Assembly: GCA_014378225.1 (NCBI GenBank)
Contig: JACMOA010000072.1
Coordinates: 1 to 14,028 of the forward strand
DNA length: 14,028 nt
DNA from: Deinococcales bacterium
GTDB lineage: Bacteria; Deinococcota; Deinococci; Deinococcales; Deinococcaceae
Direction: 5' to 3'
Within the stretch, counting starts at the first letter, position 1. Every line of letters starts with the position of its first letter. Both the position numbers and the translations under genes were made by a program. Positions 1 through 14,028 of the stretch are shown here, one piece after another. The notes below the pieces were generated by a model. The model was not told the DNA's origin, searched no databases, and saw only the letters and a list, made by a program, of their open reading frames with translations.

Positions 1-369
1 CCGCACCCGCTCGAGCTGTTTTTCCTCCACGAGGACCCCCCCCAGCACCTCGGCTGCAAAGCTTTCTCCAGCGGCCTCCACCTTGACCCGCTGACCGCGC
101 AGAGCGCCCAGCAATCCGGTCAGGCTGCGCTCGTCTGACAGCTCGAGCACGGCTTTTGACACGCTCCGGTTGCGGTCTGGCGGGGTCTCGAACTCGAGGC
201 CGTGAATTTCACCGCCATTTAGAGACAGCACCACTAAACTTTTGAGCACATCGTCCATCGCCTTTTGGTCAAACTCGAGCCGTAGCGTGGGACCCGTGAC
301 CGGGCCGCGCCGCTCGAAGTAGCCCAGGCCGTGTTGATAGAGGTGGATGCGCCGGATGGGTGGGGTCAT
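1..369 (-). CDS. Uncharacterised protein, N-terminal 123 codons (runs off the left edge)
   Basis: The reverse strand is open from an ATG at 369 to the edge of the window with no stop. The protein begins MTPPIRRIHLYQHGLGYFER and continues with an acidic/hydrophobic pattern (LEFDQKAMDDVLKSLVVL). This reminds me of uncharacterised proteins with a 'hG-YFER...MDDVLKSL' N-terminus, sometimes carrying DUF4139, but that link is from memory and weak. No signal peptide or membrane segment is visible. The start is supported by a leaderless-type -10 box (TAAACT, 376-381) exactly 6 nt before the ATG. CTCGAG density and composition match the neighbours. The gene is divergent from the release-factor-like gene at 517, sharing a 147-bp intergenic region. 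Coding status is fairly sure; function is unknown. Confidence 0.72.
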   Translation of the reverse strand, partial: MTPPIRRIHLYQHGLGYFERRGPVTGPTLRLEFDQKAMDDVLKSLVVLSLNGGEIHGLEFETPPDRNRSVSKAVLELSDERSLTGLLGALRGQRVKVEAAGESFAAEVLGGVLVEEKQLERVR

Positions 370-375
370 GACTCC

Positions 376-381
376 AGTTTA
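376..381 (-). promoter_or_regulatory. -10 box (TAAACT) of a probable leaderless promoter
   Basis: On the reverse strand TAAACT is followed by six bases (GGAGTC) and then the ATG at 369. This geometry puts the transcription start at or next to the initiation codon. No convincing -35 hexamer is seen. The GGAG just before the ATG is too close (2 nt) to be a normal ribosome binding site. Confidence 0.5.
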
Positions 382-516
382 CCCCCAACCTCGAGCCGTC
401 CCCCAACTCTGCTTCACCCAACAAGAGCGCGTCTCACCCTCGAGCCGACCACACTAAGAAGGAACACATTTTATTTGCGCTCGAGCCATTCTCGTGCGCT
501 CCCATTGGAGAACATT

Positions 517-1671
517 ATGCTGACCAAACAGGATATGGACCGCATCAACAGCCTTCCCCAGGACAAGATGGTTTTAATGGCCATCGTGAACACCAACCCC
601 TCGAGCGTGGACAACTCGAGTTCGGCGCTGGCCACCCGCATCAAGAGCCACGCCAAAGATGAAGCCATTCCACCCACGCTTTTGAGCCGCCTGCTCGAGC
701 GGGTGAGCGCAGACCAGCGCGAGTTTGGCAAGAGTCAGATTTATGTGTTGGGTGAGGACATTGAGGAAAGCATCGGGGTACAGCTCGATTTGGAGGAGCG
801 CTTGCATTTTGGAAGGCCGCTGCGCTCGGTGTTGATGAGTGTTCTGGAAGTTCATCCCAGGGTAGGCGTCTTGGCGGTAGACCGCGAGTGGGGCCGCTTT
901 TTTGTGCTCGAGCAGGGAGAACTGACCGAGATGAGGCGTGAGCAGAACCCGGATGTGGGAGACCGGGGTGACTCCCTGATGACCGGAAGGACCCGTGTAC
1001 CCGGCGCCAACAACGGGGGCGAAACCGCCGACGGACCCCAAAGCTCGAGCGGGAACGATCTGTTCCAGAACTATCTCGATGCGTCCGAGCAGAAATTCTT
1101 CAATGCGCTGCAAGCCGAACTCGAGCCGCTGATGAAGGAAAATGACCTCAAATACCTGGCCTTGGTGGGACCCGACGAGCGCCGTGCCAACTTCAAAGCC
1201 GAGATTCCAACTACCGCCCGTTTCGAGATTATTGCAGAAACCAACGTGGAAGTGGGACCCGGACACGCTCCCACCCAGAGCTTGCTCGAGAAAATCATGC
1301 CGATGGTGCAGGAATTCAAGGGTGTGCTGGCAGAGCGCCTGCTAGAGCAGGTTCAGGAAAAGGGCATCATGAACCTGGAAAACGTGCTCGAGGCGGTGCA
1401 GGAAGGGCGGGTTTACGCGCTGCTGATTCCGCAGGACGGCGCTCAGCTTCATTTGTTTCGCAGCCACAACCCTGAAGTGCCGTACTACAGCGGCAAAAAA
1501 GACCTGACCGAAAGCCCACTGGACGGCAGCTTGATGGAACGGGTCACGCTCGAGGAAATTTTACCGGACCTCAGCGACCAGTACGGCCTCGAGATTCACC
1601 GTATGACCGGAGACCACGGCGAGAAACTTGTGCGGGAGTACGGTGGTCTGGCGGCTCTGGTTCGCTACTAA
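517..1671 (+). CDS. VLRF1/baeRF-family protein (bacterial relative of aeRF1/Vms1 release factors)
   Basis: A 384-residue cytoplasmic protein. The stretch VGVLAVDREWGRFFVLEQGE (117-136) is the typical first strand pair of the eRF1-like middle domain. A Gly/Asn-rich loop follows (about 150-180), then a long helix (183-210). The C-terminal part has NVLEAVQEGRVYALLIP (289-305), as in domain 3 of archaeal/eukaryotic release factors and the bacterial baeRF families, where members such as VLRF1 are linked to ribosome rescue. The canonical GGQ tripeptide is absent; the loop instead reads NNGGETADGPQ (165-175). The start ATG at 517 is chosen because GGAG lies at 507-510, 6 nt upstream. The longer frame back to 331 would overlap the divergent gene and translates to low-complexity non-conserved sequence. 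It stands alone, 60 nt before the next gene. Family assignment is moderately sure; activity is inferred. Confidence 0.75.
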   Translation: MLTKQDMDRINSLPQDKMVLMAIVNTNPSSVDNSSSALATRIKSHAKDEAIPPTLLSRLLERVSADQREFGKSQIYVLGEDIEESIGVQLDLEERLHFGRPLRSVLMSVLEVHPRVGVLAVDREWGRFFVLEQGELTEMRREQNPDVGDRGDSLMTGRTRVPGANNGGETADGPQSSSGNDLFQNYLDASEQKFFNALQAELEPLMKENDLKYLALVGPDERRANFKAEIPTTARFEIIAETNVEVGPGHAPTQSLLEKIMPMVQEFKGVLAERLLEQVQEKGIMNLENVLEAVQEGRVYALLIPQDGAQLHLFRSHNPEVPYYSGKKDLTESPLDGSLMERVTLEEILPDLSDQYGLEIHRMTGDHGEKLVREYGGLAALVRY

Positions 1672-1718
1672 GAAGGATTCGCCTAGCCTGCCCACCCTGC
1701 CCTCAAGCGCCCAACTGC

Positions 1719-1724
1719 TAAAAT
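1719..1724 (+). promoter_or_regulatory. -10 box (TAAAAT) of a probable leaderless promoter
   Basis: TAAAAT is separated from the ATG at 1732 by 7 nt (CTCCCTG). No Shine-Dalgarno sequence sits between them, so the mRNA probably starts at or within a base or two of the ATG. No good -35 element is visible. Confidence 0.55.
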
Positions 1725-1731
1725 CTCCCTG

Positions 1732-2481
1732 ATGCGCGTCGCGGTAGAACTGGTTCCCAGAACCCTCGAGAGCTTACGAACTGAACTCGAGCACTTACAA
1801 AAACTTACGCCCCGTGAACTGAGCGTTAACATCCCAGATTTGCTGCGCTTTCCGGTGCGAAGCTGGGACGGGTGCGCTCATTTGCTGCCGCACCAAACCC
1901 GCGTGATTCCGCACCTCCGCGCCACCGATATAGACCTGAAAAAACCACTCGAGCTGGCTCCTTTTTTGCTCGAGCAGGGAATAGGGGAAATTTTGATGGT
2001 CAGCGGAGACCCACCCCCCAATTCAGACCACCGGGTTTACCCCACCTCGAGCGTGCAGGCCATTCGCAAGTTTCGGGAGGAGCTGCCAGGTGTGCGGGTT
2101 TACGCCGCGCTGGACCCGTACCGCAGCTCTCTGCGCGGCGAACTCGAGTACTGCGAGGAAAAACGCGAAGCAGGCGCGGTGGGCTTTTTCACCCAGCCGT
2201 TTTTCGATTTACGCTTCATGGACGTGTTTTTTGAAATGCTCGAGCGCTCGAGTTGTGCAGACATGGAAATTTTTTGGGGGGTCACATCTGTCACCAGCAC
2301 ACCCTCCAGAAAATACTGGGAATCCCGCAACCGGGCCATCTTTCCCAAAAGTTTTGTTCCCTCCCTCGAGTGGAACCGAGAACTTGCACGGGAAGCGCTC
2401 GAGTGGGTGCAGGAGCGAGGAAACATCTATTTTATGCCCGTGAAGGTGGGTGTAAAAGAGTATCTCGAGGGGATTCTGTAG
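1732..2481 (+). CDS. metF: Methylenetetrahydrofolate reductase-like protein (short MetF)
   Basis: A 249-residue TIM-barrel protein of the MetF family, which reduces 5,10-methylene-THF to 5-methyl-THF using FAD and supplies methyl groups for methionine synthesis. Recognisable elements: VELVP near the N-terminus (5-9, equivalent to the family's FEFFPP with its catalytic Glu), IPHLRATDID (59-68), MVSGDPP (89-95, where classical MetF has RGD), and GAVGFFTQPFFD (148-159, with the substrate-binding Gln of TQ-FFD). It is about 40 residues shorter than E. coli MetF, losing part of the barrel's C-terminal half, though the ending looks intact with no frameshift. It is preceded by a leaderless -10 box and converges with the polyprenyl synthase gene 44 bp away. 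Fold assignment is sure; exact substrate is less so, because shortened homologues are poorly characterised. Confidence 0.82.
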   Translation: MRVAVELVPRTLESLRTELEHLQKLTPRELSVNIPDLLRFPVRSWDGCAHLLPHQTRVIPHLRATDIDLKKPLELAPFLLEQGIGEILMVSGDPPPNSDHRVYPTSSVQAIRKFREELPGVRVYAALDPYRSSLRGELEYCEEKREAGAVGFFTQPFFDLRFMDVFFEMLERSSCADMEIFWGVTSVTSTPSRKYWESRNRAIFPKSFVPSLEWNRELAREALEWVQERGNIYFMPVKVGVKEYLEGIL

Positions 2482-2525
2482 GTTTGAGGTCAACGGATTG
2501 CACCTTCCATCCCACCTGAAAACCC

Positions 2526-3590
2526 CTAGTGCGTTCTGGTCGCCAGCGAACGCATCTGCTCGAGAATGATTTTAACAGCCCTCCCATTGGGTGCATCGCT
2601 CAAAGCCTGCTCAAGAATGTGTAGTCCGCGCTCGGCTTCCGCGTTGGCTACGGTCATGGCGTGCTGGGGTGCGCCGCTCGAGAGCAGCCACTCGAGAATC
2701 TGGGCCATGTCCTGCGCGGATTTGTCCACTCGAGGTTTGTTCATGGCCTTCAGGAAAAACTCGTGCTGCTCGGGGTTTGCCCGCTCGAGCCACCACAGCA
2801 GCATCAAGGTACGTTTGCCCTCGAGCAAATCTCCGGCAATTTCTTTGCCGTAGTCAAGTCTGTCCGCAGTGAGGTTGAGCACGTCGTCCCGAATCTGAAA
2901 AGCTGCGCCCAGCGCCAGTCCCGCCTCGAGAAAGCGTGGGTCTGGCGTAAGGCCAGCGGCTATCATGCCCAGCCTTAATGGAGCCACCACCGTGTAGTAC
3001 GCCGTTTTGAGCCGCACCATCTCGAGGTAATCCTGCGGCGAAATATCCCAGCGCTCCGCTGCCACCCAGCCCAAATCCATGTGCTGCCCTTCGGCGGTGC
3101 GGTGGATGGTCTCGAGAAATTCGGCCCTCGCTTCGGCTGGACCCTGAAAAACAGCTTCCCACATGTAAACGTGCAGCGCGTCTCCGGCGTTGAGTGCCAG
3201 CGCCATACCGTGAATGCGGTGCAGTGCCGGAGACCCGCGCCGCTCTTCGCTTTCGTCCTCGATGTCGTCGTGAATCAACACCCAATTTTGAAACAGCTCG
3301 AGCGCGGAAGCCAGTGGAACCGCACGGGCCATAAATCCAGACATCGGCAACTCGAGTCCTGGTACCCGCTCGAGGGGTTCGGTTCTACCCCCGTAAGCCA
3401 GAGCGCTCATCAGTACAAGCTGACCCCGAATTCGCTTGCCACCGCGCTCTGGGTAGTCGCGCATCATGCGGTAGAGCAGCTCTATCTCCGCTCGAGGGTG
3501 ATTTTGAGGCAACAGGTGGTGGATAAATTGGCGAATGAGTTCGGACAGGTCGTTCACGGTGCTTACTATAACTCGAGCTTCGTGACTCAC
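2526..3590 (-). CDS. Polyprenyl (geranylgeranyl-type) diphosphate synthase
   Basis: An all-helical prenyltransferase of 354 residues that condenses isopentenyl diphosphate onto allylic diphosphates, giving precursors for quinone side chains or carotenoids. GGKRIRG (50-56) is the diphosphate-binding segment. The first aspartate motif is DDIED (108-112, DDxxD). The second is DDVLN (235-239), with Asn in place of the last Asp, a variation seen in some GGPP synthases. ATG 3590 is 9 nt after the arginase stop, so the pair could be co-transcribed. However, an in-frame GTG at 3557 is preceded by TATAGT with 7 nt spacing, the same leaderless pattern seen elsewhere here, and would give a 343-residue protein lacking an unconserved 11-residue leader. 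Product chain length cannot be read from the sequence. Confidence 0.88.
   Translation of the reverse strand: MSHEARVIVSTVNDLSELIRQFIHHLLPQNHPRAEIELLYRMMRDYPERGGKRIRGQLVLMSALAYGGRTEPLERVPGLELPMSGFMARAVPLASALELFQNWVLIHDDIEDESEERRGSPALHRIHGMALALNAGDALHVYMWEAVFQGPAEARAEFLETIHRTAEGQHMDLGWVAAERWDISPQDYLEMVRLKTAYYTVVAPLRLGMIAAGLTPDPRFLEAGLALGAAFQIRDDVLNLTADRLDYGKEIAGDLLEGKRTLMLLWWLERANPEQHEFFLKAMNKPRVDKSAQDMAQILEWLLSSGAPQHAMTVANAEAERGLHILEQALSDAPNGRAVKIILEQMRSLATRTH
3565..3570 (-). promoter_or_regulatory. -10 box (TATAGT), possible internal leaderless promoter for the prenyl synthase
   Basis: Reverse-strand TATAGT lies 7 nt before an in-frame GTG (3557-3555). TTGGAA about 19 nt upstream could be a poor -35. 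If used, the enzyme starts at GTG 3557 and has its own promoter, independent of arginase. Confidence 0.42.
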
Positions 3591-3599
3591 ATTCCAACA

Positions 3600-4514
3600 T
3601 CACATAATCCGCTTGCCCAGCAAACTCTCGGCCATACCCACCATCACCTGTGCGGTCTGATTTTGTACGTCTAAAATCGGGTTGACCTCCACAATATCCA
3701 TACTGGTCACGCACCCACTTTCCGAGAAGAGTTCCATCAACAGGTGAGCCTCACGGTAGCTCAGACCACCCGGAACCGGGGTTCCCACCCCCGGCGCAAT
3801 ACTGGGGTCCAGTGCGTCCGCGTCAAAGGAAACGTGCAGTCGCTCGAGTCCAGCCAACTTTTCTAAGGTTTCCGCCGCAATCCGGGTTATACCCAGTTGG
3901 TCTACATCTTTCATGGTGTACATCTTGACCCCGTACTCGAGCAGGAGTTCGCGCTCGAGGGGGTCCACCGAACGAATCCCAATCATCACGATATCCTCGG
4001 GGCGCATATGCCAGCCTCCGGCCAGACTCGAGAGTTTGGGGTCTCCCAGACCTATCAGGTGGGCCACTGGCATCCCATGAATATTTCCGGTTTCGCTCGA
4101 GGTGGGCGTGTTGAAATCGGTGTGCGCGTCTACCCAAATTAAGCCACTGCGCTTGCCGTGGGCGCAACCCGACACCGTTCCCAGGCTAATGGAGTGGTCT
4201 CCACCGATGCAGATAGGAAACACATCCTCGGGCAGAGCGCTCAAACGTTCATAAGCGGCGCGGCAAGCTTCCAGAATCGGCTCGAGCATAATTAGTCCAC
4301 CCTGCTCGAGCGCGTCCATAGTTTCGGCAATTCTCACCGGAACGTCTCCCAAATCCTGAACCGTGTGGCCCAGACCCCGTAAAGCTGCTGCCAACCGCGC
4401 ATTACGCAGCGCACTCACGCCCATATCCACCCCGCGCCGCCCTGCACCCAAATCCATTGGAATACCCAGTAAAGCCAAATTCTTGTTCAACGTCGCGCTC
4501 GAGAAACTCGTCAT
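3600..4514 (-). CDS. rocF: Arginase
   Basis: A 304-residue ureohydrolase with the complete manganese-site signature: GGDHS (104-108), DAHTD (129-133, followed by the Asn/Ser-Gly-Asn-His-Gly loop typical of arginases), and SFDADALDP (229-237). VGTPVPGGLSYREA and SMDIVEVNP near the C-terminus are typical of arginase rather than agmatinase. It hydrolyses L-arginine to ornithine and urea in the cytoplasm. Length is normal for bacterial arginases and no key residue is missing. ATG 4514 is preceded by TAGGCT with exactly 7 nt spacing and no Shine-Dalgarno, so translation is probably leaderless. The gene is divergent from yceD across 320 bp and sits just upstream of the prenyl synthase, with no obvious metabolic link. 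Confidence 0.95.
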   Translation of the reverse strand: MTSFSSATLNKNLALLGIPMDLGAGRRGVDMGVSALRNARLAAALRGLGHTVQDLGDVPVRIAETMDALEQGGLIMLEPILEACRAAYERLSALPEDVFPICIGGDHSISLGTVSGCAHGKRSGLIWVDAHTDFNTPTSSETGNIHGMPVAHLIGLGDPKLSSLAGGWHMRPEDIVMIGIRSVDPLERELLLEYGVKMYTMKDVDQLGITRIAAETLEKLAGLERLHVSFDADALDPSIAPGVGTPVPGGLSYREAHLLMELFSESGCVTSMDIVEVNPILDVQNQTAQVMVGMAESLLGKRIM

Positions 4515-4521
4515 GAAAGAG

Positions 4522-4527
4522 AGCCTA
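4522..4527 (-). promoter_or_regulatory. -10 box (TAGGCT) of the arginase leaderless promoter
   Basis: Reverse-strand TAGGCT is separated by CTCTTTC (7 nt) from the arginase ATG. AAGGCA, 17 nt further upstream, matches the -35 consensus at only three of six positions. Confidence 0.48.
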
Positions 4528-4637
4528 ACACGCTTTGGGGGTTATGCCTTGCGTCTGCAACATTATTTTGTCTGGATTGTGCCTCGAGCGCCTTGTCGAG
4601 TATGGGGGTGTATATTCATAAGCTCGAGAGTTTAAAC

Positions 4638-4665
4638 AGCAGACGACAAAATTCAGACATCAGAC
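4638..4665 (-). repeat. Heptanucleotide repeat array, left copy (reverse orientation)
   Basis: Read on the reverse strand, four consecutive 7-mers occur: GTCTGAT, GTCTGAA, TTTTGTC, GTCTGCT. They are related to the forward array at 4737-4771. The two arrays share a 12-bp complementary stretch (4655-4666 with 4757-4768) and a 9-bp one (4640-4648 with 4740-4748), in a crossing order. Confidence 0.55.
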
Positions 4666-4736
4666 AAATGGTGTCTTTGAGCAAAGCGACTTGGTTGGAA
4701 CGCCCGTTTAAACATCAGGGTTCAAGCATTGGCTTT

Positions 4737-4771: not shown

Positions 4772-4798
4772 CTTTCAGCCCAAATTGTTCCACACGTC

Positions 4799-4828: not shown

Positions 4829-4834
4829 TATGTG

Positions 4835-5434: not shown

Positions 5435-5444
5435 TAAAGCGTGA

Positions 5445-5501: not shown

Positions 5502-5521
5502 GACCACCAAAACTACAAAAC

Positions 5522-6001
5522 ATGCCTAACCCCCTAACCCACTTCCAAAACGGACGCCCCCAAATGGTGGATGTGTCCGAAAAAACCCCGTCCCTGCGCG
5601 TGGCTCGAGCGGAGGGTTACGTTATACTCACCCCGGAAGCTCTAGCAGCCCTAGAAAATAACCCAAAAGGCGACCCGCTGGCAGTGGCTCAACTGGCTGG
5701 AATTATGGGAGCTAAGCAAACAGCCAACCTGATTCCGCTGTGTCACCCGCTGCTACTGTCGCATGTAGACGTGACCCTCGAGCAAATTCATCAAACCATT
5801 CGCATTGAGGCCACCGTCAAAACTCGAGAAGCCACCGGGGTAGAGATGGAGGCGCTAACGGCTGTCACCGTGGCGGCTTTGAGCGTGTATGACATGCTCA
5901 AAGCCTCGAGCAAAGCCCTCGAGATTACCGGGGTGCGCTTGCTGCACAAGAGTGGGGGAAAGTCTGGAGTCTATGATGTGGAGGGTGTTTCACCTGGATA
6001 G
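5522..6001 (+). CDS. moaC: Cyclic pyranopterin monophosphate synthase MoaC
   Basis: 159 residues, the normal length. MoaC converts the GTP-derived 3',8-cyclo intermediate into cyclic pyranopterin monophosphate, an early step of molybdenum cofactor synthesis, as a hexamer in the cytoplasm. MVDVSEK (15-21), [19 protein letters not shown] (59-77) with Lys65, [11 protein letters not shown] (105-115), and SVYDMLKA with Asp124 and Lys127 followed by [10 protein letters not shown] (140-149) are all family-diagnostic, and the catalytic Lys/Asp/Lys set is intact. The ATG at 5522 matches the usual MoaC N-terminus (LTHF...MVDVS). No Shine-Dalgarno or clear -10 is evident upstream, so initiation is unclear. 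A strong hairpin terminator follows. No other moa/moe genes are nearby. Confidence 0.96.
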
Positions 6002-6015
6002 CGCTACCCCCTTGA

Positions 6016-6069
6016 ACAGCAGCGTTGCACTCTGCTGTGGTTTTCCCCCTGTGCAGGGGGAAATTTTTT
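6016..6069 (+). terminator. Rho-independent terminator after moaC
   Basis: TTTCCCCCT (6042-6050) pairs with AGGGGGAAA (6055-6063) around a 4-nt loop and is followed by six T (6064-6069). Just upstream is a second hairpin, ACAGCAG (6016-6022) with CTGCTGT (6032-6038). Transcription from moaC should stop here. Confidence 0.85.
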
Positions 6070-6124
6070 ACAGCTTTGGTTCTCGAGTGCGTTCGTTTTT
6101 GATTTTAACCGAGGTTTTTAACTT

Positions 6125-6994
6125 GTGAGAATTGGACTTTTAGATACTCTGGCCCCCAAAGCGATGGCTTTCTGGGAAGCGTTTGCAGGGCAGCTCGAAC
6201 TTGAGCAAGTCAAGCCCACTCTGACCCTGGAAGCCTCGCTCGAGTTGGGGCGACAAACCCTGCCGAGTGAGGCCAGCTACGTGCAGCTTGCGGTGGGAAG
6301 ACTGCTCGAGATGCAAGACAGCGCTGATTTGTGCGCGATTCCTCTACTCGAGCCGGAGATTGAGCGTGAAACCTCGAGTCCGTGGCTCACCGATTTTGGC
6401 TCAGTGTACGCCCGCCGCCTCAGTTTTCCGCGCCCGGTGGACCTGACCGTGTATGGGCCTCCAGAAGCCCTCGAGCGCAATGCACTGACCCGGGGCCAGG
6501 AGTGGACCCACAGCATTGGGCTGGTTCGCAAAGCCCTGAACCGCACCAGTCCGATGCTGAAAGCCAAATTTAGAGAACCAGAGATGGAACGGGCCGGACA
6601 CGCCACAATTGCAGTGTTGGGCTTTAATGCCCTGCTCGAGCAACCCTTTTTATTGGGAGAGCTACCCGCTCAGCTCGGCGCTCACAGGCTTTTTCCGGTG
6701 TACTCGAGCACGCTGGAGCGCTCCAAGACCCTGGAGTATAGCGCCCGTGTGAATCTGAATCTGGCCCTCGAGATGGAACGTGGCGTAGCAGGCGCAATGG
6801 CCATGCTCGAGGGCAAGGCTCCACTGCGTGGTTTTGTGTTTGCCGTTGCCACAGGGGACACCAGCGGTCACGCTCTGGCACGGCGGCTTCAGGAACGCGC
6901 CCGCAAACCCGCCCTCACGCTCGAGGTCTCACCAGAAAAGCTGGATTTAGACGCGCTCGAGGAGTTTTCCGCTCGAGTGAGCGTGAACCGTTAA
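6125..6994 (+). CDS. Uncharacterised protein, possibly a degenerate DUF2229/2-hydroxyacyl-CoA dehydratase-like fold
   Basis: 289 residues, GTG start, with GAGG at 6111-6114 about 10 nt upstream. The N-terminal half (MRIGLLDTL...MAFWEAFAGQLELEQV...SEASYVQLAVGRLLEM...ADLCAIPLLEPE) follows the order of secondary structure and spacing of DUF2229-type proteins: a Rossmann-like strand, a helix ending in 'FWEAFFEELG', a conserved Glu, a 'GHV' helix, then 'D-I-IPR'. A second similar block begins at ATIAVLGFNALLEQP. The cysteines that bind the iron-sulphur cluster in those proteins are missing, so a catalytic role in dehydration is unlikely. It forms a unit with the following gene (13-nt gap). Coding status is certain; the family link is an inference from pattern only. 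Confidence 0.75.
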   Translation: MRIGLLDTLAPKAMAFWEAFAGQLELEQVKPTLTLEASLELGRQTLPSEASYVQLAVGRLLEMQDSADLCAIPLLEPEIERETSSPWLTDFGSVYARRLSFPRPVDLTVYGPPEALERNALTRGQEWTHSIGLVRKALNRTSPMLKAKFREPEMERAGHATIAVLGFNALLEQPFLLGELPAQLGAHRLFPVYSSTLERSKTLEYSARVNLNLALEMERGVAGAMAMLEGKAPLRGFVFAVATGDTSGHALARRLQERARKPALTLEVSPEKLDLDALEEFSARVSVNR

Positions 6995-6999
6995 AGGAG
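6993..6999 (+). promoter_or_regulatory. Ribosome binding site AAAGGAG
   Basis: A near-perfect Shine-Dalgarno sequence ends 8 nt before ATG 7008 and overlaps the stop codon of the upstream gene. It sets the start at 7008 rather than at GTG 6999. Confidence 0.8.
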
Positions 7000-7007
7000 T
7001 GCTCAAG

Positions 7008-7379
7008 ATGCTAAGTTTTTTATCCCGTATCCGCTTTATTCGCTGGCTCAACACCGTCGAGAAAACGCCTGGACTGAGCGTTAATAAAACCGTTCGGCTG
7101 CTGGTCAAGGCCATGCTGTTCGCCTTTCTAGCGGTTTCACTGCAAACACTTTTGGTGGGCCTGAAAATCCCTTATGCAAACACCATCTATGCCCAGATAG
7201 GCATTTTGCTGCTGATTTACATTCCCTTTTTTCGCTGGATGAACGCCGAAATGGTGTACACCCGGCCTCAAGCTGTGGCTCGAGGCAAAGATGGCAAGCC
7301 GCTGGGCAAGAAACTGGCGAGTAAGGCCAAAAAGGTCAAGTACGCCGGGGTGAAGGGAAAAGGTCCCAAGTTCCGCTAA
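7008..7379 (+). CDS. Small basic membrane protein, two predicted helices
   Basis: 123 residues. A basic N-terminus (RIRFIRW) is followed by two hydrophobic segments, about 31-51 and 61-77, joined by a short polar loop. The C-terminal tail from residue 86 on is strongly basic (GKPLGKKLASKAKKVKYAGV), probably cytosolic and able to bind nucleic acid or acidic lipid. I do not recognise a family. It lies 13 nt after the preceding gene and shares its ribosome-binding region with that gene's end, so the two are translated from one message. Its stop is 10 bp from the convergent SDR stop, with no hairpin between. Confidence 0.8.
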   Translation: MLSFLSRIRFIRWLNTVEKTPGLSVNKTVRLLVKAMLFAFLAVSLQTLLVGLKIPYANTIYAQIGILLLIYIPFFRWMNAEMVYTRPQAVARGKDGKPLGKKLASKAKKVKYAGVKGKGPKFR

Positions 7380-7389
7380 CCCAATCCGC

Positions 7390-8238
7390 TCAACCCCGCT
7401 TCCGCATGGCCTCGAGCGCGTCCCATTGCTTGGGTGTCACCTCGTCCAAAATGTTGAACTCTCCCCCACCCCACACGGTTTCGCCGCCGTCAATAGTGAC
7501 CACATCTCCGGTAATGAACCCGGCCATGTCCGAAATCAGGAACGCCGCCAAATTGGCCAGCTCGAGATGTTCACCCACCCGTTTCAGGGGAATACGCTTC
7601 TCGAACAGCTCACCGATTTCTGGAGTGGGCATCAGGCGGCTCCAAGCTCCCTCGGTGGGAAAGGGTCCGGGCGCAATGGCATTTAGCCGAATGCCGTACT
7701 TGCCCCACTCCGCCGCCAGCGATTTGGTCAGCGCTACCACACCCGCTTTGCTCACCGCGCTAGGAACCACGTAGCCGCTTCCGGTCTGGGCGTAGGTGGT
7801 AGCGATGTTGAGCACCACGCCCTTCTGACCCTTGGCAATCCAGCGCTTTCCCAGCTCGAGAGTGCAGTACACCGTTCCATGCAGCACAATTCCCAGCACC
7901 GAATCAAACGCTCGAGTGGACAGGCGCTCCGTTGGGCTGATGAAGTTTCCGGCAGCGTTGTTGAGCAGCACATCCACGCGCCCGTAATGGGTTTCTACCG
8001 CCTCGAGCATGGCGTTTACCGCTTCCGGGTCTCGCACATCCACGGAATACGGGAAAACCTCACCGCCACACTTCTCCACCATTTCTTTTGCAGCGCCCTC
8101 GAGCACTTCTTTTCTGCGCCCCGCAATGGCTAGTTTAGCCCCCAGCTCGAGGAAACGCTCTCCCATACTGCGCCCTAAACCCGTCCCGCCTCCAGTGATG
8201 AGCACCACTTTATTCTTGAGTAAGCCGTCTTGAAACAT
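7390..8238 (-). CDS. 2,4-dienoyl-CoA reductase-type short-chain dehydrogenase
   Basis: 282 residues. The NADP(H) site is TGGGTGLG (15-22), followed by NNAAGNF (93-99). The usual SDR Tyr-x3-Lys is absent: the segment reads TTYAQTGSGYVVPSAVSK (147-164), the arrangement of the mitochondrial 2,4-dienoyl-CoA reductase (DECR1) group, where the catalytic Tyr lies before the Ser/Lys pair (here Tyr149, Ser160, Lys164). Similarity to that group as I remember it continues through SLAAEWGKYGIR, PGPFPTEGAWSRL, GEFNILDEVTPKQWD. The predicted role is NADPH reduction of 2,4-dienoyl-CoA during beta-oxidation of unsaturated fatty acids. The start ATG 8238 has AGGAG (8247-8251) 8 nt upstream; a -10-like TAGACT is at 8273-8278. 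The longer frame to 8352 is unconserved. No other beta-oxidation gene is adjacent. Confidence 0.9.
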   Translation of the reverse strand: MFQDGLLKNKVVLITGGGTGLGRSMGERFLELGAKLAIAGRRKEVLEGAAKEMVEKCGGEVFPYSVDVRDPEAVNAMLEAVETHYGRVDVLLNNAAGNFISPTERLSTRAFDSVLGIVLHGTVYCTLELGKRWIAKGQKGVVLNIATTYAQTGSGYVVPSAVSKAGVVALTKSLAAEWGKYGIRLNAIAPGPFPTEGAWSRLMPTPEIGELFEKRIPLKRVGEHLELANLAAFLISDMAGFITGDVVTIDGGETVWGGGEFNILDEVTPKQWDALEAMRKRG

Positions 8239-10087: not shown

Positions 10088-10094
10088 CTGCTTT

Positions 10095-10100
10095 ATTTTA
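10095..10100 (-). promoter_or_regulatory. -10 box (TAAAAT) of the VanW-protein promoter
   Basis: Reverse-strand TAAAAT is followed by AAAGCAG (7 nt) and the ATG at 10087. AAGGA further upstream is about 14 nt from the ATG, too far for a normal Shine-Dalgarno. A leaderless transcript is likely. Confidence 0.52.
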
Positions 10101-10151
10101 TCCTTCTTTCGTTTCTCAATGATTTGCAAAAGTGGATTTGAGCCTGCACTC

Positions 10152-10196
10152 GAGCCTGAAAACAAGTGTATTAAGGTTTGCTAAAGATTCAGGCTC
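10152..10196 (-). other. Inverted repeat at the end of the repeat-protein gene
   Basis: GAGCCTGAA (10152-10160) is perfectly complementary to TTCAGGCTC (10188-10196), a 9-bp stem with a 27-nt loop that overlaps the stop codon of the gene ending at 10195. There is no T-run after it, so it is at best a weak terminator or mRNA-stabilising hairpin. Confidence 0.35.
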
Positions 10197-10674
10197 AGCC
10201 GCTGCCCGACGCGGTTTTGGCGTCCTCGAGTAGTTTATAAGTGACTACCGCAATTAAAGCAGCCCACTCTGCTGAAGCGTCGCCCTCGAGCTGAACGTCC
10301 TTGCCGATGCTGGCCCCACCAATGCGGCCCTCGAGCCTACCTCGGCTGACTTTCAGGTGAACATCCTTGCCGTCGTGAGGACCGCCAAAACGTCCCTTGA
10401 ATTCATCCTGAACGCGCTCGAGGGTCAAAGTTTGACCCACCCCATCCCCACCTAGCCGCACTTTTATCCGGTTTGGCTCGAGGATTCCTACTACATCAAA
10501 CCCCAGAACCGCGCCCCCAATGCGCCCAGAAACTCCGCCTGGAACCCCCTCGAGGTGGACATCTGCACCGCTCGACGCGCCACCCAATCGACCCCTCACC
10601 TGAGTCTGGTTGACCTCGAGCCGCACGTCAAAGCCCTGAAGGGTTCCGCCTACCCGTCCCTTGAGAGTCTGCAT
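10195..10674 (-). CDS. Glycine-rich protein of six 22-residue repeats, unknown function
   Basis: 159 residues. The protein is built from six repeats starting at residues 6, 28, 50, 72, 94 and 116, a strict 22-residue period. The consensus is GRxGGxxxGxDVxLE followed by about seven variable residues with a hydrophobic one near the end; repeat 4 is the most divergent (VRLGG...GQTLTLE). The alternation of Gly turns and short hydrophobic strands suggests a beta-solenoid or stacked beta-hairpins. A short C-terminal segment, AEWAALIAVVTYKLLED (135-151), is helical and hydrophobic and could anchor or cap the domain. No signal peptide is evident. ATG 10674 lies 2 nt after the asnS stop, so the two are probably translationally coupled. 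I do not recognise a described family. Confidence 0.82.
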   Translation of the reverse strand: MQTLKGRVGGTLQGFDVRLEVNQTQVRGRLGGASSGADVHLEGVPGGVSGRIGGAVLGFDVVGILEPNRIKVRLGGDGVGQTLTLERVQDEFKGRFGGPHDGKDVHLKVSRGRLEGRIGGASIGKDVQLEGDASAEWAALIAVVTYKLLEDAKTASGSG

Positions 10675-10676
10675 AT

Positions 10677-12017
10677 TTAGGGATACATCCGGGTCAACAT
10701 GCGGGGAAAGGGAATCGCTTCGCGCAGGTGGTCAATGCCACTTATCCAGGCGACTAAGCGCTCGAGGCCCATACCAAAACCCGCGTGTGGTACGCTACCA
10801 AACCTACGGAGGTCCAGATACCACTCAAACGCCTCGAGCGGGAGGTTGTGCTCTTCGATGCGAGACTTTAAGAGTTCATAATCGTGAATACGCTCACTTC
10901 CCCCGATAATTTCGCCGTAACCCTCTGGGGCAATCATGTCGTCGCACAGGGCTAACAGCGGATTTTCGGGGTCGGGCTGCATGTAAAACGCCTTGAAGCT
11001 GGCCGGGTAGCGCTCCACCATCACCGGGCGGTCAAAATGATAGCCCAGAATGGTTTCATGTGGTGCGCCGAAATCCTCGCCCCACAGAACGGGTTGAATA
11101 TCGTCCTGCACGCCAGAAGGCAAATCTTTGTTCTCGATATGAACCCGGATAATCTCGAGCGCCTCGGTATAAGTAATGCGGGGAAAGTTGCCCTGGGCGG
11201 CTGGCTCTAGTTTTGAAAGGTCACGCTCGAGCAAACCCAGTTCGGTGGCACAGTGCTCTAAAACGTGACGCACCACGTAACTGACCATGCGCTCCTGCAA
11301 ATTCATATTCTGAACGTGGCTAGAGGGTGCTACTTCCGGCTCGAGCATCCAGAACTCGAGCAGATGACGGCGGGTTTTGGACTTTTCGGCCCGAAAAGTA
11401 GGGCCGAAGGTGTAGACCTTGCCCAGCGCCAGTGCGCCCGCCTCGGCGTAAAGCTGGCCCGACTGCGAGAGATACGCCTTGTCCTGCTCGAACAGGTCTA
11501 TCTCGAACAGGTTAGTGGTTCCCTCAGCGGCGCTGGGCGTGAAAAACGGTGCGTCAAAGCGCACAAACCCCTCGTCGTGAAAAAAGGTCATCAGCGCGAA
11601 CTGCACAGCGTCCCGAATTTTGAGAATGGCCCACGGACGGCGGTGACGGAGCCACAGATGGCGGCGCTCGAGCAGAAAATCAACGCCGTGTTCTTTGGGC
11701 GTGATGGGATATTCACCCGCACTGACGGCTTGTGGCTCGAGACCCGTCACCGCAATCTCAAAGCCGCCTGCCGCTCGAGTGTCAGCCTGCACCGTTCCGG
11801 TGAGCGCAAACGCCTGTTCCTGGGTTAAACGTCCTGCCGTATCGAAGACGGACTCTGCCACATCATTTTTGAACACGGCGGCCTGCACAAATCCGGTGCC
11901 GTCGCGGACCTGAAGAAAGTGTATTTTTCCGCTCGAGCGTTTCTGGGTGAGCCATACCGTAAGGGTGATGATTTGACCTTCAAACTGACTCAGGGTGGCA
12001 AGGGTGGGAGGATTCAT
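10677..12017 (-). CDS. asnS: Asparaginyl-tRNA synthetase
   Basis: 446 residues, class IIb. An N-terminal OB-fold anticodon-binding domain (about 12-100, with [19 protein letters not shown] at 31-49) is followed by the catalytic core. Motif 2 is [20 protein letters not shown] (208-227). Motif 3 is [13 protein letters not shown] (413-425). [17 protein letters not shown] (160-176) and [10 protein letters not shown] (184-193) resemble AsnRS rather than AspRS, and the protein lacks the GAD insertion of bacterial AspRS. It charges tRNA-Asn with asparagine in the cytoplasm. The ATG at 12017 has TATAAT 8 nt upstream and no Shine-Dalgarno. Length and motifs are complete. The repeat-protein gene begins 2 nt after its stop. 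Confidence 0.95.
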
Positions 12018-12025
12018 AGGGGGAA

Positions 12026-12031
12026 ATTATA
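12026..12031 (-). promoter_or_regulatory. -10 box (TATAAT) of the asnS promoter
   Basis: A perfect reverse-strand TATAAT is separated by TTCCCCCT (8 nt) from the asnS ATG, implying a leader of at most one or two bases. The -35 region is weak. Confidence 0.55.
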
Positions 12032-12053
12032 CAGGTGGCTCGAGGGGTGAAGC

Positions 12054-12081
12054 GACTGGGAGCGGGTCCACGCTCTCAGTC
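12054..12081. other. Hairpin upstream of the asnS promoter
   Basis: GACTGGGAGCG (12054-12064) pairs with CGCTCTCAGTC (12071-12081) across a 6-nt loop, 11 bp with one G-U on the forward strand (a C-A mismatch on the reverse). It has no T-tract on either side. It could be an operator-like palindrome or a remnant terminator of the acetyltransferase gene upstream. Confidence 0.35.
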
Positions 12082-12129
12082 AGGTCTGATTATCGCGTAC
12101 TGCACCACATCTTCTGGAGTTTGGTCCTT

Positions 12130-12675
12130 CTACACAAATGCTCTCAACAACCCTTCGCGCACAAACCCAGCCTTCTCCAGAACCCTTCCAGGCCCAGGAT
12201 TTCGTGGAAAGTGATTGACTTCCAGCCGATACAGCTCGAGCGGTCCAAAAGTGTAACCCACTACCTCGAGTAGCGCTTCAGTCATTAAACCCTGTCCACG
12301 CCAGTCTCGAGCCGTCCAGTAACCCAGTCCGCCCCTTTTGTGGGTAGGGTCCCAGCTCAGCCCTAAACGCCCCACCAGCCGTCCACTTTCCCGCAAAAAC
12401 AGGCCCCAACCATGTCTGGGTTTTCCACTCCGCTCCTGCTCGAGGTCGAGTTCAATCCGCTCGAGCGCAAAATTCGGGGGCAGCGGGTGCGGGATGGTGA
12501 GGGTGAAGTCAGCTATTTCGGGGTCATCCAGGGCTTTTTATAGCTCTGGGGCATCCTCGAGCGTAAGCGGGCGCAGGGTCGGACGGGAGGTGTTCAAGAT
12601 AGGAGTCTTACTCAAGCGCCAGCGTAGCAGGACGTTCAGCCCATCCACTGCTCGAGCCGTTCTGGACTCATTCAT
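12130..12675 (-). pseudogene. GNAT N-acetyltransferase (RimJ/RimL type), interrupted by one in-frame stop
   Basis: From ATG 12675 the frame reads a leader, then RPTLRPLTLEDAPEL, an ochre codon TAA (12540-12538), and KALDDPEIADFTLTIPHPLP in the same frame through to the natural TAG at 12130. The normal GNAT sequence at this point is 'DAPELYxALxDPEVA', so the stop most simply replaces a Tyr codon (TAT or TAC). Downstream, GLGYWTARDWRGQGLMTEAL (acetyl-CoA-binding R-GxG-type loop), LELYRLEVNHFPRNPGPGRVLEKAGF and REGLLRAF are intact and family-typical. No frameshift is present, so this is a young lesion, a sequencing error, or a split gene with re-initiation at an internal TTG or similar. Intact relatives acetylate protein N-termini or small molecules. 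Confidence 0.8.
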
Positions 12676-12815
12676 TTTGTTTCCAGCAGAGTTCACCTGC
12701 TTCAGGTTAATGCTAGCTAAATATTAAAGCAGTGGTCTTCACAATCTTTATGACGTACCACACGCCCTCAAGCGGTACTCCCTTACGAAGGCGACAGCAG
12801 AATTTTTTACAGAGC

Positions 12816-12848
12816 TTCAGCTAGGATTCAGCTAAGCTTCAGTAGCAT
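12816..12848 (+). promoter_or_regulatory. Three tandem 11-bp direct repeats upstream of the metalloprotease gene
   Basis: TTCAGCTAGGA (12816-12826), TTCAGCTAAGC (12827-12837) and TTCAGTAGCAT (12838-12848) are consecutive 11-bp units sharing TTCAG. Repeats one helical turn apart are typical binding sites of OmpR/PhoB-family response regulators. They lie about 60-95 bp before the start codon; TTGACT at 12856-12861 follows closely but has no good -10 at 17 bp. Confidence 0.45.
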
Positions 12849-12898
12849 CACCGAATTGACTTATCTGCTCGTCTGCGGGTCTTGTTTTTATGCTTTCT

Positions 12899-12903
12899 GG
12901 AGG
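12899..12903 (+). promoter_or_regulatory. Ribosome binding site GGAGG
   Basis: GGAGG ends 7 nt before GTG 12911. It selects that GTG over the in-frame ATG at 12890, which would place seven extra residues before the lipoprotein signal peptide. Confidence 0.75.
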
Positions 12904-12910
12904 CATCATC

Positions 12911-13828
12911 GTGAAAACTGTTACCCTCATCCTCAGCCTCTCCATACTACTGGCCGCATGTAACAACATCTCACAGGCTCCCCTGGCAGCCGCACCGGAC
13001 AACACCCAGGCCATCGAGACCCTTCCGGTGATGCCCGAGGTGCAGGTTTCTCCCGAAACCCTCGAGAATCAGGCTACCGAGCCGTACAACATCAGCCTCC
13101 AGTTTATTGCAGGTACACCTCAGAGCGTGCGGGACGCACTCAGCACCGCTGCCCGCCGCTGGGAAGGGGTGATTCGTCAGGGTCTACCCAGTGTGAGCGG
13201 CAGTATCCGTGCGGGTGCTTGCGGAGGCAATGCAGCCTTTAGTGGCACCATTGACGATATTCTGGTGTTCACCGGAACCAAAGCCATTGACGGAGCTGGA
13301 AAAATCCTGGCCCAGTCTGGGCCGTGCTACATCCGCTCGAGCGGTGGACTCACCTATGCATCCGTGCTGATTTTTGACAGTGCAGATGTGAACCAGTTTG
13401 GGAGTCAGTTGGCCGCTATCGCCACCCACGAACTGGGCCATAGCCTCGGTCTGGGAACGCTTTGGCAGTTCAAAGGCGTACTGCGCGGTGCTGGAACGAG
13501 TGACCCACGCTTTACCGGACTCAACGCGGTGCGCGAGTGGAATGCGCTCGGCGGCACGGGTCAGGTTCCGGTAGAAAATACCGGCGGCGCAGGAACAAGG
13601 GATGGTCACTGGCGCGAAAGCATCCTGAAAAACGAGCTGATGACGGGCTTTTTGAATGGCGGCAGCAACCCCCTGAGCCGCATCAGCATCGCCTCGTTTG
13701 CAGATTTGGGCTATGCGGTGGACCTGAACGCGGCCAACCCCTATAGCCTGTCTGCACTCAGCTCGAGCACTCTGGACCAGCTCGAGGTGGGCGAGGAACT
13801 CATTACACCGTTTGGACGGGCGGAGTAA
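12911..13828 (+). CDS. Secreted lipoprotein zinc metalloprotease (metzincin, leishmanolysin-like)
   Basis: 305 residues from the GTG at 12911. The signal peptide MKTVTLILSLSILLAAC ends in a lipobox (LAAC, Cys17), so the mature protein is lipid-anchored outside the cytoplasmic membrane. A Pro/Thr/Gln-rich linker (about 20-58) precedes the protease domain. The zinc site HELGHSLGLG (173-182) fits HExxHxxGxx. A further His in GHWR (His233) 56 residues later, then NELMTGF (241-247) with a Met-turn, and NPLSRISIASFADLGYAVD (253-271), is the arrangement seen in M8-type (leishmanolysin-like) peptidases, where the third ligand is separated from HExxH by a long insertion. Two cysteine residues (104, 139) could form a disulphide. 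CTCGAG is sparser here than in the neighbours. The substrate is unknown. Confidence 0.88.
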   Translation: MKTVTLILSLSILLAACNNISQAPLAAAPDNTQAIETLPVMPEVQVSPETLENQATEPYNISLQFIAGTPQSVRDALSTAARRWEGVIRQGLPSVSGSIRAGACGGNAAFSGTIDDILVFTGTKAIDGAGKILAQSGPCYIRSSGGLTYASVLIFDSADVNQFGSQLAAIATHELGHSLGLGTLWQFKGVLRGAGTSDPRFTGLNAVREWNALGGTGQVPVENTGGAGTRDGHWRESILKNELMTGFLNGGSNPLSRISIASFADLGYAVDLNAANPYSLSALSSSTLDQLEVGEELITPFGRAE

Positions 13829-13863
13829 GGGTTTTGAGCGGAGCGAGTGGGAAAAAGATACGA

Positions 13864-13928
13864 AATCCGTGATATGGAGAACTATTGGGAACAGCACCCA
13901 ATAGTTCGTAATTAAACGGATTCCATAT
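13864..13928. repeat. Compound inverted repeat after the metalloprotease gene
   Basis: A perfect 11-bp stem (GAACTATTGGG 13879-13889 with CCCAATAGTTC 13897-13907, 7-nt loop) is flanked by two further complementary pairs in crossing order: AATCCGT 13864-13870 with ACGGATT 13916-13922, and ATATGGA 13872-13878 with TCCATAT 13922-13928. There is no T-run. It may be a dispersed intergenic element. Confidence 0.5.
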
Positions 13929-13949
13929 GAGTGAAACATTCGCTCGAGG

Positions 13950-13976
13950 GGACAGGTTTTGGCCTGTCCTTTTTTT
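13950..13976 (+). terminator. Rho-independent terminator
   Basis: GGACAGG (13950-13956) pairs with CCTGTCC (13963-13969) around a 6-nt loop (TTTTGG), followed by seven T. It probably ends the transcript of the metalloprotease gene. Nothing recognisable follows to the end of the window. Confidence 0.85.
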
Positions 13977-14028
13977 GTTTTCCAACACCATCCTGACTTA
14001 GGTCCTCGAGTTCGTGTTCTACACTGAG

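Follow-up and report, generated by a model that had tools for sequence, protein, structure and literature searches.

The window analysed here is the whole stretch of DNA from position 1 to position 14028 (14,028 bp), and by exact count it holds 125 sites of the palindrome CTCGAG, which has no strand of its own. The sites start at positions 10, 142, 193, 274, 390, 439, 480, 600, 615, 694, 907, 1044, 1120, 1285, 1387, 1549, 1588, 1765, 1786, 1948, 1969, 2046, 2143, 2239, 2247, 2365, 2398, 2464, 2559, 2677, 2691, 2729, 2784, 2820, 2925, 3021, 3111, 3297, 3351, 3369, 3491, 3572, 3843, 3936, 3954, 4027, 4096, 4281, 4305, 4498, 4583, 4623, 4885, 5093, 5201, 5360, 5414, 5604, 5777, 5823, 5905, 5918, 6082, 6239, 6305, 6347, 6373, 6470, 6635, 6703, 6767, 6806, 6920, 6956, 6972, 7279, 7411, 7561, 7855, 7911, 8002, 8098, 8146, 8311, 8459, 9069, 9134, 9282, 9371, 9503, 9539, 9752, 9812, 10149, 10225, 10285, 10330, 10417, 10477, 10549, 10615, 10761, 10833, 11154, 11226, 11340, 11355, 11667, 11736, 11774, 11932, 12039, 12235, 12265, 12306, 12439, 12460, 12556, 12651, 13061, 13336, 13762, 13781, 13943 and 14005. 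The 13 listed open reading frames contain 108 of them, 51 on plus-strand genes, and the remaining 17 lie outside; by frame, 78 of the genic sites read CTC GAG (frame 0), nine are in frame 1 and 21 in frame 2. The gene for asparagine--tRNA ligase (AsnS; 10677..12017, minus strand, identified by an NCBIfam match) carries 10 sites, eight in frame as Leu-Glu codons, while an ORF (10195..10674, minus strand; 159 aa) that matches no Pfam family has seven, all in frame 0 (Leu-Glu), and another (6125..6994, plus strand; 289 aa), matching neither Pfam nor NCBIfam, has 12, nine of them in frame 0. Eight further sites (12039-12651) occupy the stretch 12018..12889 outside the 13 ORFs, where the sole ORF of at least 100 aa listed wholly inside is on the plus strand at 12338-12727. 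In AsnS, eight of the 10 sites are common to the relative G002 although third codon positions are only 50% identical, and at four of the eight in-frame sites the commonest dipeptide among outgroups (24 sequences retained from 38) differs from Leu-Glu (MD, IE, VA, EE); at the other four it is Leu-Glu.

Base composition, first-order and second-order Markov models predict 4.19, 4.40 and 8.05 sites in the window, corresponding to excesses of 30x, 28x and 15.5x (Poisson tail for 125 against 4.4 expected, ~1e-131); the maximal-order expectation, 121, is uninformative because CTCGAG sites dominate their own 5-mers. The runner-up palindrome, AGCGCT, occurs 15 times. The original prediction of about 125 sites at an approximately 30-fold excess, scattered over genes of either strand, all frames and intergenic DNA, is borne out by these counts, and the excess extends to the source assembly (G000; 1.94 Mb, 59% complete), whose 14,690 sites in 1,936,785 bp (one per 132 bp) far exceed expectation, the first-order excess in a sample of it being 30.8x, with AGCGCT next among palindromes at 2.7x. 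The reversed word GAGCTC, our control, is found twice in the whole 1.94 Mb. Across the genome one palindromic word, CTCGAG, is in strong excess, and it recurs outside genes as well as inside them, in every reading frame; as a check on the method, HIP1 counted on 50 kb of Synechocystis pSYSX gave 31 copies against 0.26 expected.

The same excess, 16-53x by first-order Markov, marks six strong genomes of two families (G000, G002 and G004-G007; five of them at least 91% complete, G000 59%), with 5,900-7,600 sites per Mb, or one per 130-170 bp, and observed-to-expected ratios of 23-82 against a masked background. Meiothermus-like and Trueperaceae genomes show it less strongly, Thermus shows it slightly, and it is absent from G003, a member of the same family as strong genomes, so that first-order values form a graded series from G003 (0.6x) through G001 (6.4x) and the Meiothermus-like G033 (12x) up to 53x. 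Among cultured relatives, Meiothermus granaticius (81 sites in 21.3 kb) and Allomeiothermus silvanus have a clear excess. The CTCGAG/GAGCTC ratio, which is composition-free but overstates the excess where GAGCTC itself is purged, making the Markov values sounder, correlates with genome size over 111 genomes (rho 0.64), and the densities of the two words correlate weakly (rho -0.25), both figures being uncorrected for kinship.

Coding and non-coding DNA are similarly dense in the six genomes (5.7-8.5 and 5.1-10.0 sites per kb), and what favours CTCGAG is a force acting on DNA, on both strands, in all frames and outside genes. It overrides amino-acid choice as well: Leu-Glu dipeptides reach 2.11-2.65x expectation in strong genomes, against 1.09x in G003, and 63-84% of them are written CTC GAG, while Glu-Leu stays at 0.74-1.08 of expectation. 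Here a DNA motif would more than double one dipeptide across the sampled proteins, biasing comparisons of proteins as well as codon statistics for these organisms.

The sites also avoid one another below ~20 bp, far beyond what generic repeats do. The pair correlation of CTCGAG is 0.25, 0.26, 0.39, 0.54 and 0.64 at 6-8, 9-11, 12-14, 15-17 and 18-20 bp and returns to 0.94-0.99 at 21-47 bp, whereas other six-base inverted repeats give 0.76 at 6-8 bp and 0.94-1.17 at 9-23 bp, and direct repeats 1.00-1.48 over 6-23 bp. Beyond 8 bp the other inverted repeats do not support an avoidance of hairpins as the chief reason for the exclusion. Coding pairs that are out of frame show it as well (0.36, 0.54), and so, more weakly, do non-coding pairs (0.56, 0.74; 22 at 6-11 bp against ~39 expected), and at 6-20 bp there are 3 pairs in G033 against ~11 expected and 22 in G001 against ~35. 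These distances suggest a footprint, a reading against which count the weaker non-coding deficit, the scarcity in G003 too of Leu-Glu pairs 2-3 residues apart (5 seen, 0.73) and the low value of GC-matched inverted repeats of other words at 6-8 bp (0.61).

One-base variants had been described as rare, which does not hold: in the window CTCGAA occurs 8 times against 3.4 expected (CTCGAC once against 4.5), and the 18 neighbours together stand at 0.92-1.47x in the six strong genomes (90-200 kb samples, background computed with CTCGAG masked). Individual pairs differ: CACGAG/CTCGTG is low in strong genomes (0.29-0.75) but also in G003 (0.31), and outer-base variants sum to 1.10, 1.69, 1.41, 2.25, 1.90 and 0.79x in G000, G002 and G004-G007, with 1.30 in G003. 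Overall, the force leaves one-base variants undepleted, and for the most part it adds no further site closer than ~20 bp to one already present. As regards sharing between genomes, where each shared site is counted from both sides and 57 HSPs were kept after dropping 16 without an open frame (3 + 10 + 3), frame-1/2 sites are shared within families in 14 of 22 (f1) and 26 of 71 cases (f2), against 0.14-0.18 for other hexamers, and between families in 2 of 12 against 0.15, without excess. Frame-0 sharing within f2 (45 of 82 both CTCGAG, ~42 expected from site frequency there) does not exceed what conserved Leu-Glu under independent bias would produce and is therefore no proof that single sites are retained; conservation was discarded as such a proof although sharing had looked strong, at 0.42-0.72 within families (other hexamers 0.13-0.35) and 0.60, 0.28 and 0.21 between them (0.13-0.17).

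The excess of one palindrome is accompanied by a purge of many other GC-rich six-base ones. In strong genomes 23-33 of the 64 six-base palindromes, GAGCTC among them, fall below 0.2x expectation, which resembles restriction-modification avoidance as treated in the cited part of PMC4687349, with the difference that CTCGAG, at 16-53x, runs the opposite way and is over-represented where a restriction target accompanied by its nuclease would be under-represented. Of the nine genomes sampled, seven combine a strong excess with the purge and G003 lacks both, while G001 has a clear excess with little purge (5 of 64 palindromes); no graded link emerged between the observed-to-expected ratio of CTCGAG and the mean ratio of other palindromes in the nine genomes (rho -0.08). 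The XhoI family (PF04555) has matches in four of 111 genomes, none of them strong, and three congeners carrying such a gene (G012-G014) have 0.70-0.97 CTCGAG per kb against 1.65-1.97 in three without it; this does not bear out an XhoI-specific depletion, as GAGCTC is lower too and the ratios overlap (1.8-2.8 versus 2.3-2.4).

A cognate orphan methyltransferase had also been anticipated, by analogy with HIP1. The high frequency, the presence in all frames and outside genes and the favouring rather than avoidance of the site all agree with that analogy, but the enzyme did not follow: profiles PF00145, PF07669, PF01555, PF02384 and PF02086 (94 ORFs in an all-against-all comparison), together with PF12950, yielded no methyltransferase orthologue common to the five strong genomes at least 91% complete. 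The widest orthologous set, L005/L006/L007 (PF00145, 59-74% identical; the solved chain nearest to L005 is M.HhaI), covers three of these five. The comparison leaves out further pieces of an ORF already included and those matches that had no locus, among them no fewer than three weak PF02384 ones from strong genomes (G002:C562, G006:C8, G006:C56), and contains two loci from non-strong genomes, L036 (G033) and L042 (G003), cut from the wrong strand.

In the reading we favour, at a probability of roughly 0.45, a branch of Deinococcota has in CTCGAG a highly iterated palindrome of the HIP type. The force would be either selection or, by way of DNA exchange, a molecular drive; a putative protein would recognise double-stranded CTCGAG, may or may not be a methyltransferase, and might occupy ~20 bp per site, the deficit below 20 bp arising, we propose, because little is gained from a further site under the same footprint. 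Ordinary mutation would create new sites, to be kept where tolerated, above all as Leu-Glu, and would also remove them, making a converting repair enzyme unnecessary, and under strong restriction pressure CTCGAG might have been the outstanding six-base palindrome both safe and useful. Counting against this reading, a candidate recogniser was not found among the methyltransferase families searched. The same holds for the missing excess in the between-family sharing of frame-1/2 sites, for the lack of a rank correlation between CTCGAG excess and the purge over nine genomes, for G001 with its excess but little purge, and for the slightly lower CTCGAG density of methyltransferase loci in five of five genomes. 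A bolder version, tentative though conceivable, sees a dense genome-wide address read by a putative dedicated and undescribed factor that binds double-stranded DNA over ~20 bp, with one sieve (DNA exchange or genome defence) imposing CTCGAG and purging other palindromes even at the price of rewriting proteins; if true, it would constitute a second, independently evolved HIP system.

Several other explanations have to be weighed against this reading. A codon or amino-acid artefact, by which CTC and GAG are preferred and Leu-Glu is common, could draw on the predominance of frame 0 in the window, but it is refuted by the similar non-coding density and by the 30 of 108 genic sites out of frame and deserves practically no credence; the near-absence of GAGCTC, the same codons swapped, at ordinary Glu-Leu frequencies argues likewise, yet GAGCTC is itself purged. 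A selection-free mutation or repair bias making CTCGAG from its neighbours would fit a force blind to strand, frame and gene boundaries, as well as the independent equilibrium that frame-0 sharing resembles. We consider it improbable, given that efficient conversion would deplete the neighbours, that point conversion would not give the 20-bp exclusion and that frame-1/2 sites are over-shared within families; its VSP-type form is disfavoured because CTTGAG/CTCAAG is not depleted (1.2-1.8x in the six strong genomes) and a Vsr gene occurs in one of 11 genomes.

A drive resembling DNA uptake, in which fragments bearing CTCGAG are favoured in transformation and other palindromes are cut by the recipients' restriction systems, would explain excess and purge by a single transfer sieve, and it is in line with their co-occurrence, with the overriding of protein sequence and with the 53 methyltransferase loci, presumably often exchanged, which lack GAGCTC and have 4.2-5.8 CTCGAG per kb against sample averages of 5.6-6.6 (lower in five of five genomes, by 5-25%, hence at 75-95% of average density). 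It is nonetheless unlikely: known uptake sequences are, in the passages cited, under-represented in coding DNA (PMC7811141), which CTCGAG is not, and, unlike it, are non-palindromic and longer (PMC1939737); in density CTCGAG stands at six to eight times the Haemophilus USS (~1 per kb, PMC7811141); and G001 has the excess with little purge. Rather doubtful, too, is a coupling to methylation, whereby a mark on CTCGAG (or YTCGAR/TCGA) is selected or drives accumulation through mismatch repair, self-recognition or replication control. There are precedents in the cyanobacterial HIPs (PMC4390886), in an orphan CTCGAG methyltransferase of Nocardia whose motif clusters near dnaA (PMC4752239) and in CTCGAG m5C in Halorubrum (PMC8112702); every strong genome at least 91% complete has several DNA methyltransferase matches, and outer-base variants at 0.79-2.25x recall the outer-base deviations described for HIP1 (PMC4390886). 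Against it stand the missing orthologous set, although lineages may use non-homologous enzymes, the lack of any match to the six Pfam families in the 59%-complete G000, the complement of G001 (one PF00145 enzyme adjoining a Vsr gene in a putative defence island, a single weak match to PF02384 and two large proteins of Eco57I type), and the fact that CTTGAG, the product of internal CpG transition, is the highest of three transition products in one genome of six, G000.

Known systems resemble this one in part. The cyanobacterial HIP1 (GCGATCGC) and its alternatives are, according to PMC4390886, GC-rich palindromes in very large excess both within genes and between them, unevenly distributed among relatives and often accompanied by rare GATC, and their function is still offered there as a model. 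The word here is a six-base one, CTCGAG, instead of HIP1 or a described alternative, its phylum, to judge from the relatives of AsnS, is Deinococcota rather than Cyanobacteria, and its 5,900-7,600 copies per Mb compare with 300-2,700 for the HIP1 8-mer in that account (PMC4390886); it further differs in lacking a shared methyltransferase of the six Pfam families, in more than doubling Leu-Glu and in its 20-bp exclusion. The AsnS alignment listed Thermus, Meiothermus, Thermaceae and Trueperaceae MAGs, one 'Deinococcales bacterium' MAG and 70 loci from other phyla, with no record assignable to the two strong families; no Deinococcota appeared among the 25 plasmid matches listed, of 707, for the arginase of the window. 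The DUS and USS of Neisseriaceae and Pasteurellaceae are likewise short words spread genome-wide, coding DNA included, possibly by drive, whereas CTCGAG is palindromic, shorter, much denser and undepleted in coding DNA. The Nocardia methyltransferase motif (Blow et al. 2016) is the same word and not a restriction target, but is described there as a cluster by dnaA, in contrast to the genome-wide saturation, with no matching enzyme found, described here.

No established account for this lineage turned up in the literature searched, as had been supposed, and four findings go beyond the original prediction: other palindromes are purged, sites exclude one another within 20 bp, protein composition is shifted and a gradient runs through the phylum. 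HIP1 was reportedly described in 1995, and a second case that is denser, belongs to a different phylum and has graded relatives makes a general explanation testable, since it would have to lie in whatever both groups share. Viral contigs picked by a triple-CTCGAG pattern (at least 80 loci) reach observed-to-expected ratios of CTCGAG as high as 19.9, and two of the 25 listed lack GAGCTC, but all were chosen for clusters.

The original prediction of a large excess of the palindrome CTCGAG is borne out: the window holds exactly 125 copies against 4.2, 4.4 and 8.0 expected from base composition, first-order and second-order models, respectively, the next commonest palindrome being AGCGCT with 15. 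In the 1.94 Mb assembly (59% complete) to which the window belongs as contig 320, CTCGAG occurs 14,690 times (7,585 per Mb, or once every 132 bp) and GAGCTC, a control that is CTCGAG read backwards, identical in composition and likewise a palindrome, occurs twice. CTCGAG was found in 111 of 111 genomes examined from the phylum, taken as Deinococcota because the nearest named relatives by asparagine–tRNA ligase (AsnS, window 10677..12017, minus strand) are Thermus, Meiothermus, Thermaceae and Trueperaceae. The CTCGAG/GAGCTC ratio, composition-free but inflated wherever GAGCTC is purged, exceeds 1 in 95 of these genomes, 2 in 54, 5 in 29 and 100 in six, namely G000 (the assembly of the window) and G002 of family f1 and G004–G007 of family f2, henceforth the strong genomes. 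Of the two remaining f1 genomes, G001 falls in between at 11 and G003 stands at 0.45; genus g13, which we infer to be Thermus, has a median of 1.0. The ratio also climbs with genome size (rho 0.64, 111 genomes, kinship uncorrected).

Named stretches, judged by base composition, reach 11.4x in Meiothermus granaticius, 6.4x in M. luteus, 2.3–3.3x in three Thermus and 5.6x in a Trueperaceae MAG; 70 loci from outside the phylum in the same scan lie at 0–2.2x. By first-order expectation over 50 kb each, plasmids of Allomeiothermus silvanus and Oceanithermus stand at 3.5x and 3.8x, and those of Deinococcus radiodurans and D. peraridilitoris at 0.43x and 0.48x, with no site in that of D. proteolyticus, so that Deinococcus proper, judged on these three plasmid stretches, appears to lie outside the excess.

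The excess is accompanied by a purge of other palindromes. Samples of 90–200 kb per genome (80 kb for the Meiothermus-like G033), taken in most genomes from contigs chosen partly for methyltransferase matches and in G000 containing the window, give first-order observed/expected ratios of 30.8 in G000, 46.3 in G002, and 40.8, 52.5, 32.3 and 16.1 in G004–G007, with 6.4 in G001, 0.58 in G003 and 12.4 in G033; the plain CTCGAG/GAGCTC counts alone use full assemblies, some of them incomplete and all with rounded sizes. Between 23 and 33 of the 64 palindromic hexamers fall below 0.2x in the strong genomes and G033, versus 28–63 of 2,016 non-palindromic pairs, and 5 and 2 of 64 do so in G001 and G003; ten, including GAGCTC, GGCGCC, CTGCAG and CGCGCG, are this low in all six strong genomes. 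The other palindromes above 2x (at least 10 copies), AGCGCT (G000, G004), TGATCA (G002), AATATT and TTTAAA (G006), TGTACA (G007) and CTATAG (G033), are all far below CTCGAG. Excess and purge coincide in seven of the nine sampled genomes, G001 showing excess with little purge, and their degrees have no rank correlation (rho −0.08, nine genomes). Among tetramers, GATC is near-missing from the G000 sample (L074–L093; 8 in 89.6 kb, 0.03x) and GGCC from those of G004–G006 (0.01–0.02x), presumably through the action of restriction systems. AGCGCT shows a mild second excess of 1.8–2.7x in the G000, G002, G004 and G007 samples, and GTAC one of 1.4–2.2x in G002 and G004–G007.

Across the strong genomes, CTCGAG density is 5.7–8.5 per kb in coding and 5.1–10.0 per kb in non-coding DNA, genes being crude ORF calls of at least 150 aa, with short genes thus counted as non-coding; in a separate observation, the 12 bp past called stop codons carry 11.8 per kb versus 6.3–10.3 in other bins away from the stop, which may relate to terminators. 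Frame 0, which reads Leu-Glu, is preferred, and frames 1 and 2 together hold 348–423 sites per f2 sample, 158 in G000 and 227 in G002. The Leu-Glu dipeptide is itself in excess (2.65x in G000, 2.11–2.44x in the remaining strong genomes, 1.87x in G001, 1.64x in G033, 1.09x in G003), and therefore the force has moved protein sequence itself; in G000, CTC GAG encodes 84% of Leu-Glu, and Leu-Glu written otherwise stands at only 0.42x. At four of the eight in-frame AsnS sites, the dipeptide most frequent in the outgroup is one other than Leu-Glu (24 outgroup sequences kept of 38 tried).

The force acts at the level of DNA, on a scale of about 20 bp. Pooled over six genomes, the hazard of the next CTCGAG is near-flat past about 24 bp (6.2–7.7 per kb) and is one quarter of that plateau at 6–12 bp; the pair correlation rises from 0.25 (6–8 bp) through 0.26 (9–11), 0.39 (12–14) and 0.54 (15–17) to 0.64 (18–20), is 0.94–0.99 from there to 47 bp, and is 0.88 at 48–59 bp. 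The deficit at 6–11 and 12–17 bp is strongest for coding in-frame pairs (0.10, 0.39), followed by coding out-of-frame (0.36, 0.54) and non-coding pairs (0.56, 0.74), and also occurs, on small counts, in G033 and G001. Avoidance of hairpins or repeats was rejected as its main cause and accounts for little of it, since other six-base inverted repeats reach 0.76 at 6–8 bp (0.61 with four G or C) and 0.94–1.17 at 9–23 bp, and direct repeats stand at 1.00 or above. Part of the deficit may be protein-level, given that Leu-Glu pairs 2–3 residues apart are low not only in the strong genomes (0.53) but also in G003 (0.73, 5 seen). Tandem sites 6 bp apart, of which none was seen, are separately barred because the junction spells GAGCTC. 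This spacing is the best mechanistic hint: it looks as if a unit some 20 bp wide were being counted.

The simplest account would be a sequence-specific double-strand reader of CTCGAG, under selection or drive. Among the alternatives that remain, the foremost is methyltransferase-coupled marking of the site. Every strong genome other than G000 has several DNA methyltransferase Pfam matches; G000 (59% complete) has none in six families searched, and no orthologous group among 94 ORFs compared (a few weak matches left out) spans the five strong genomes at least 91% complete, the widest being a C5 group in three of them (L005/L006/L007, 59–74% identical; L005 is nearest M.HhaI among solved chains). 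Second in order is an uptake-type sieve favouring CTCGAG. Surroundings of methyltransferase genes are probably prone to exchange between genomes, and the CTCGAG level there (4.2–5.8 per kb, 75–95% of average, with no GAGCTC, in 53 loci) is compatible with a sieve shared across the community or with fast amelioration, allowing for a slight lag. Third comes mutation bias toward CTCGAG. Were it to work by converting neighbours, one-mismatch words would be depleted, and in the strong genomes they are not: the claim that one-base variants are rare did not hold, the 18 words summing, with CTCGAG masked out of the background, to 0.92–1.47x (0.87x in G003), outer-base variants to 0.79–2.25x (1.30 in G003) and CTTGAG/CTCAAG to 1.2–1.8x. 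Information at the base next to the site does not exceed 0.4 bit, the preferred preceding base being G in G000, G002 and f2 and C in G001; G000 and G002 also prefer C at −2 to −4.

The closest known system is HIP1, the cyanobacterial highly iterated palindrome; in most cyanobacteria, one group excepted, its 8-mer reaches 300–2,700 copies per Mb and 55–228 times the number expected from base composition (PMC4390886, Table 2). Neither Deinococcus nor Thermus is named in the main text of that paper, and the literature matches listed, from a search outside which most subscription papers lie, hold no account of the excess in this phylum.

Sites appear to persist within families to some extent and, over longer times, to be re-made at permissive places. 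In small alignments, with AsnS also compared alone, a CTCGAG of one genome is matched by CTCGAG in its partner in 42–72% of cases within families versus 13–35% for other hexamers, and in 60, 28 and 21% between families versus 13–17%. Frame-0 sharing is at the level expected from independent bias at conserved Leu-Glu (within f2, both CTCGAG at 45 of 82, one at 28, none at 9), and frame-1/2 sites are over-shared within families (14/22 and 26/71, versus 0.14–0.18 for other hexamers), which together argue for partial persistence and later re-making; between families 2/12 are shared, these frame-split figures counting both directions, with single genomes recurring across several pairs.

Four of the 111 genomes carry an XhoI-family nuclease, and no strong genome is among the four; TaqI_C (above cut-off) and Vsr each occur in one of 11. 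In G012, adjoining XhoI-family and N6_N4 methyltransferase genes on opposite strands (G012:C125:464-1830; L063, L174) likely form a CTCGAG restriction-modification system; among the matches listed, the best that this methyltransferase has in the strong-genome ORFs compared stay under 30% identity. A decayed XhoI-family copy with two internal stop codons lies at G108:C1:1095688-1096226, in a genome of moderate CTCGAG density. The sole PF00145 enzyme of G001, a C5 DNA methyltransferase, stands in a putative defence island (L118:1126-10611, G001:C11), where its neighbours are a Vsr-like endonuclease gene, a dynamin-like ORF and a large helicase-like ORF; the cluster also has a further ATPase-like ORF, names other than those of methyltransferase and Vsr being read from sequence.

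Two AsnS-like genes, 61% and 60% identical to that of the window, lie about 4.4 kb apart at G024:C3:2804570-2811490. The window ORF at 331-1671 matches bacterial archaeo-eukaryotic release factor family 10 (PF18854), and our impression is that its listed start is too far upstream.
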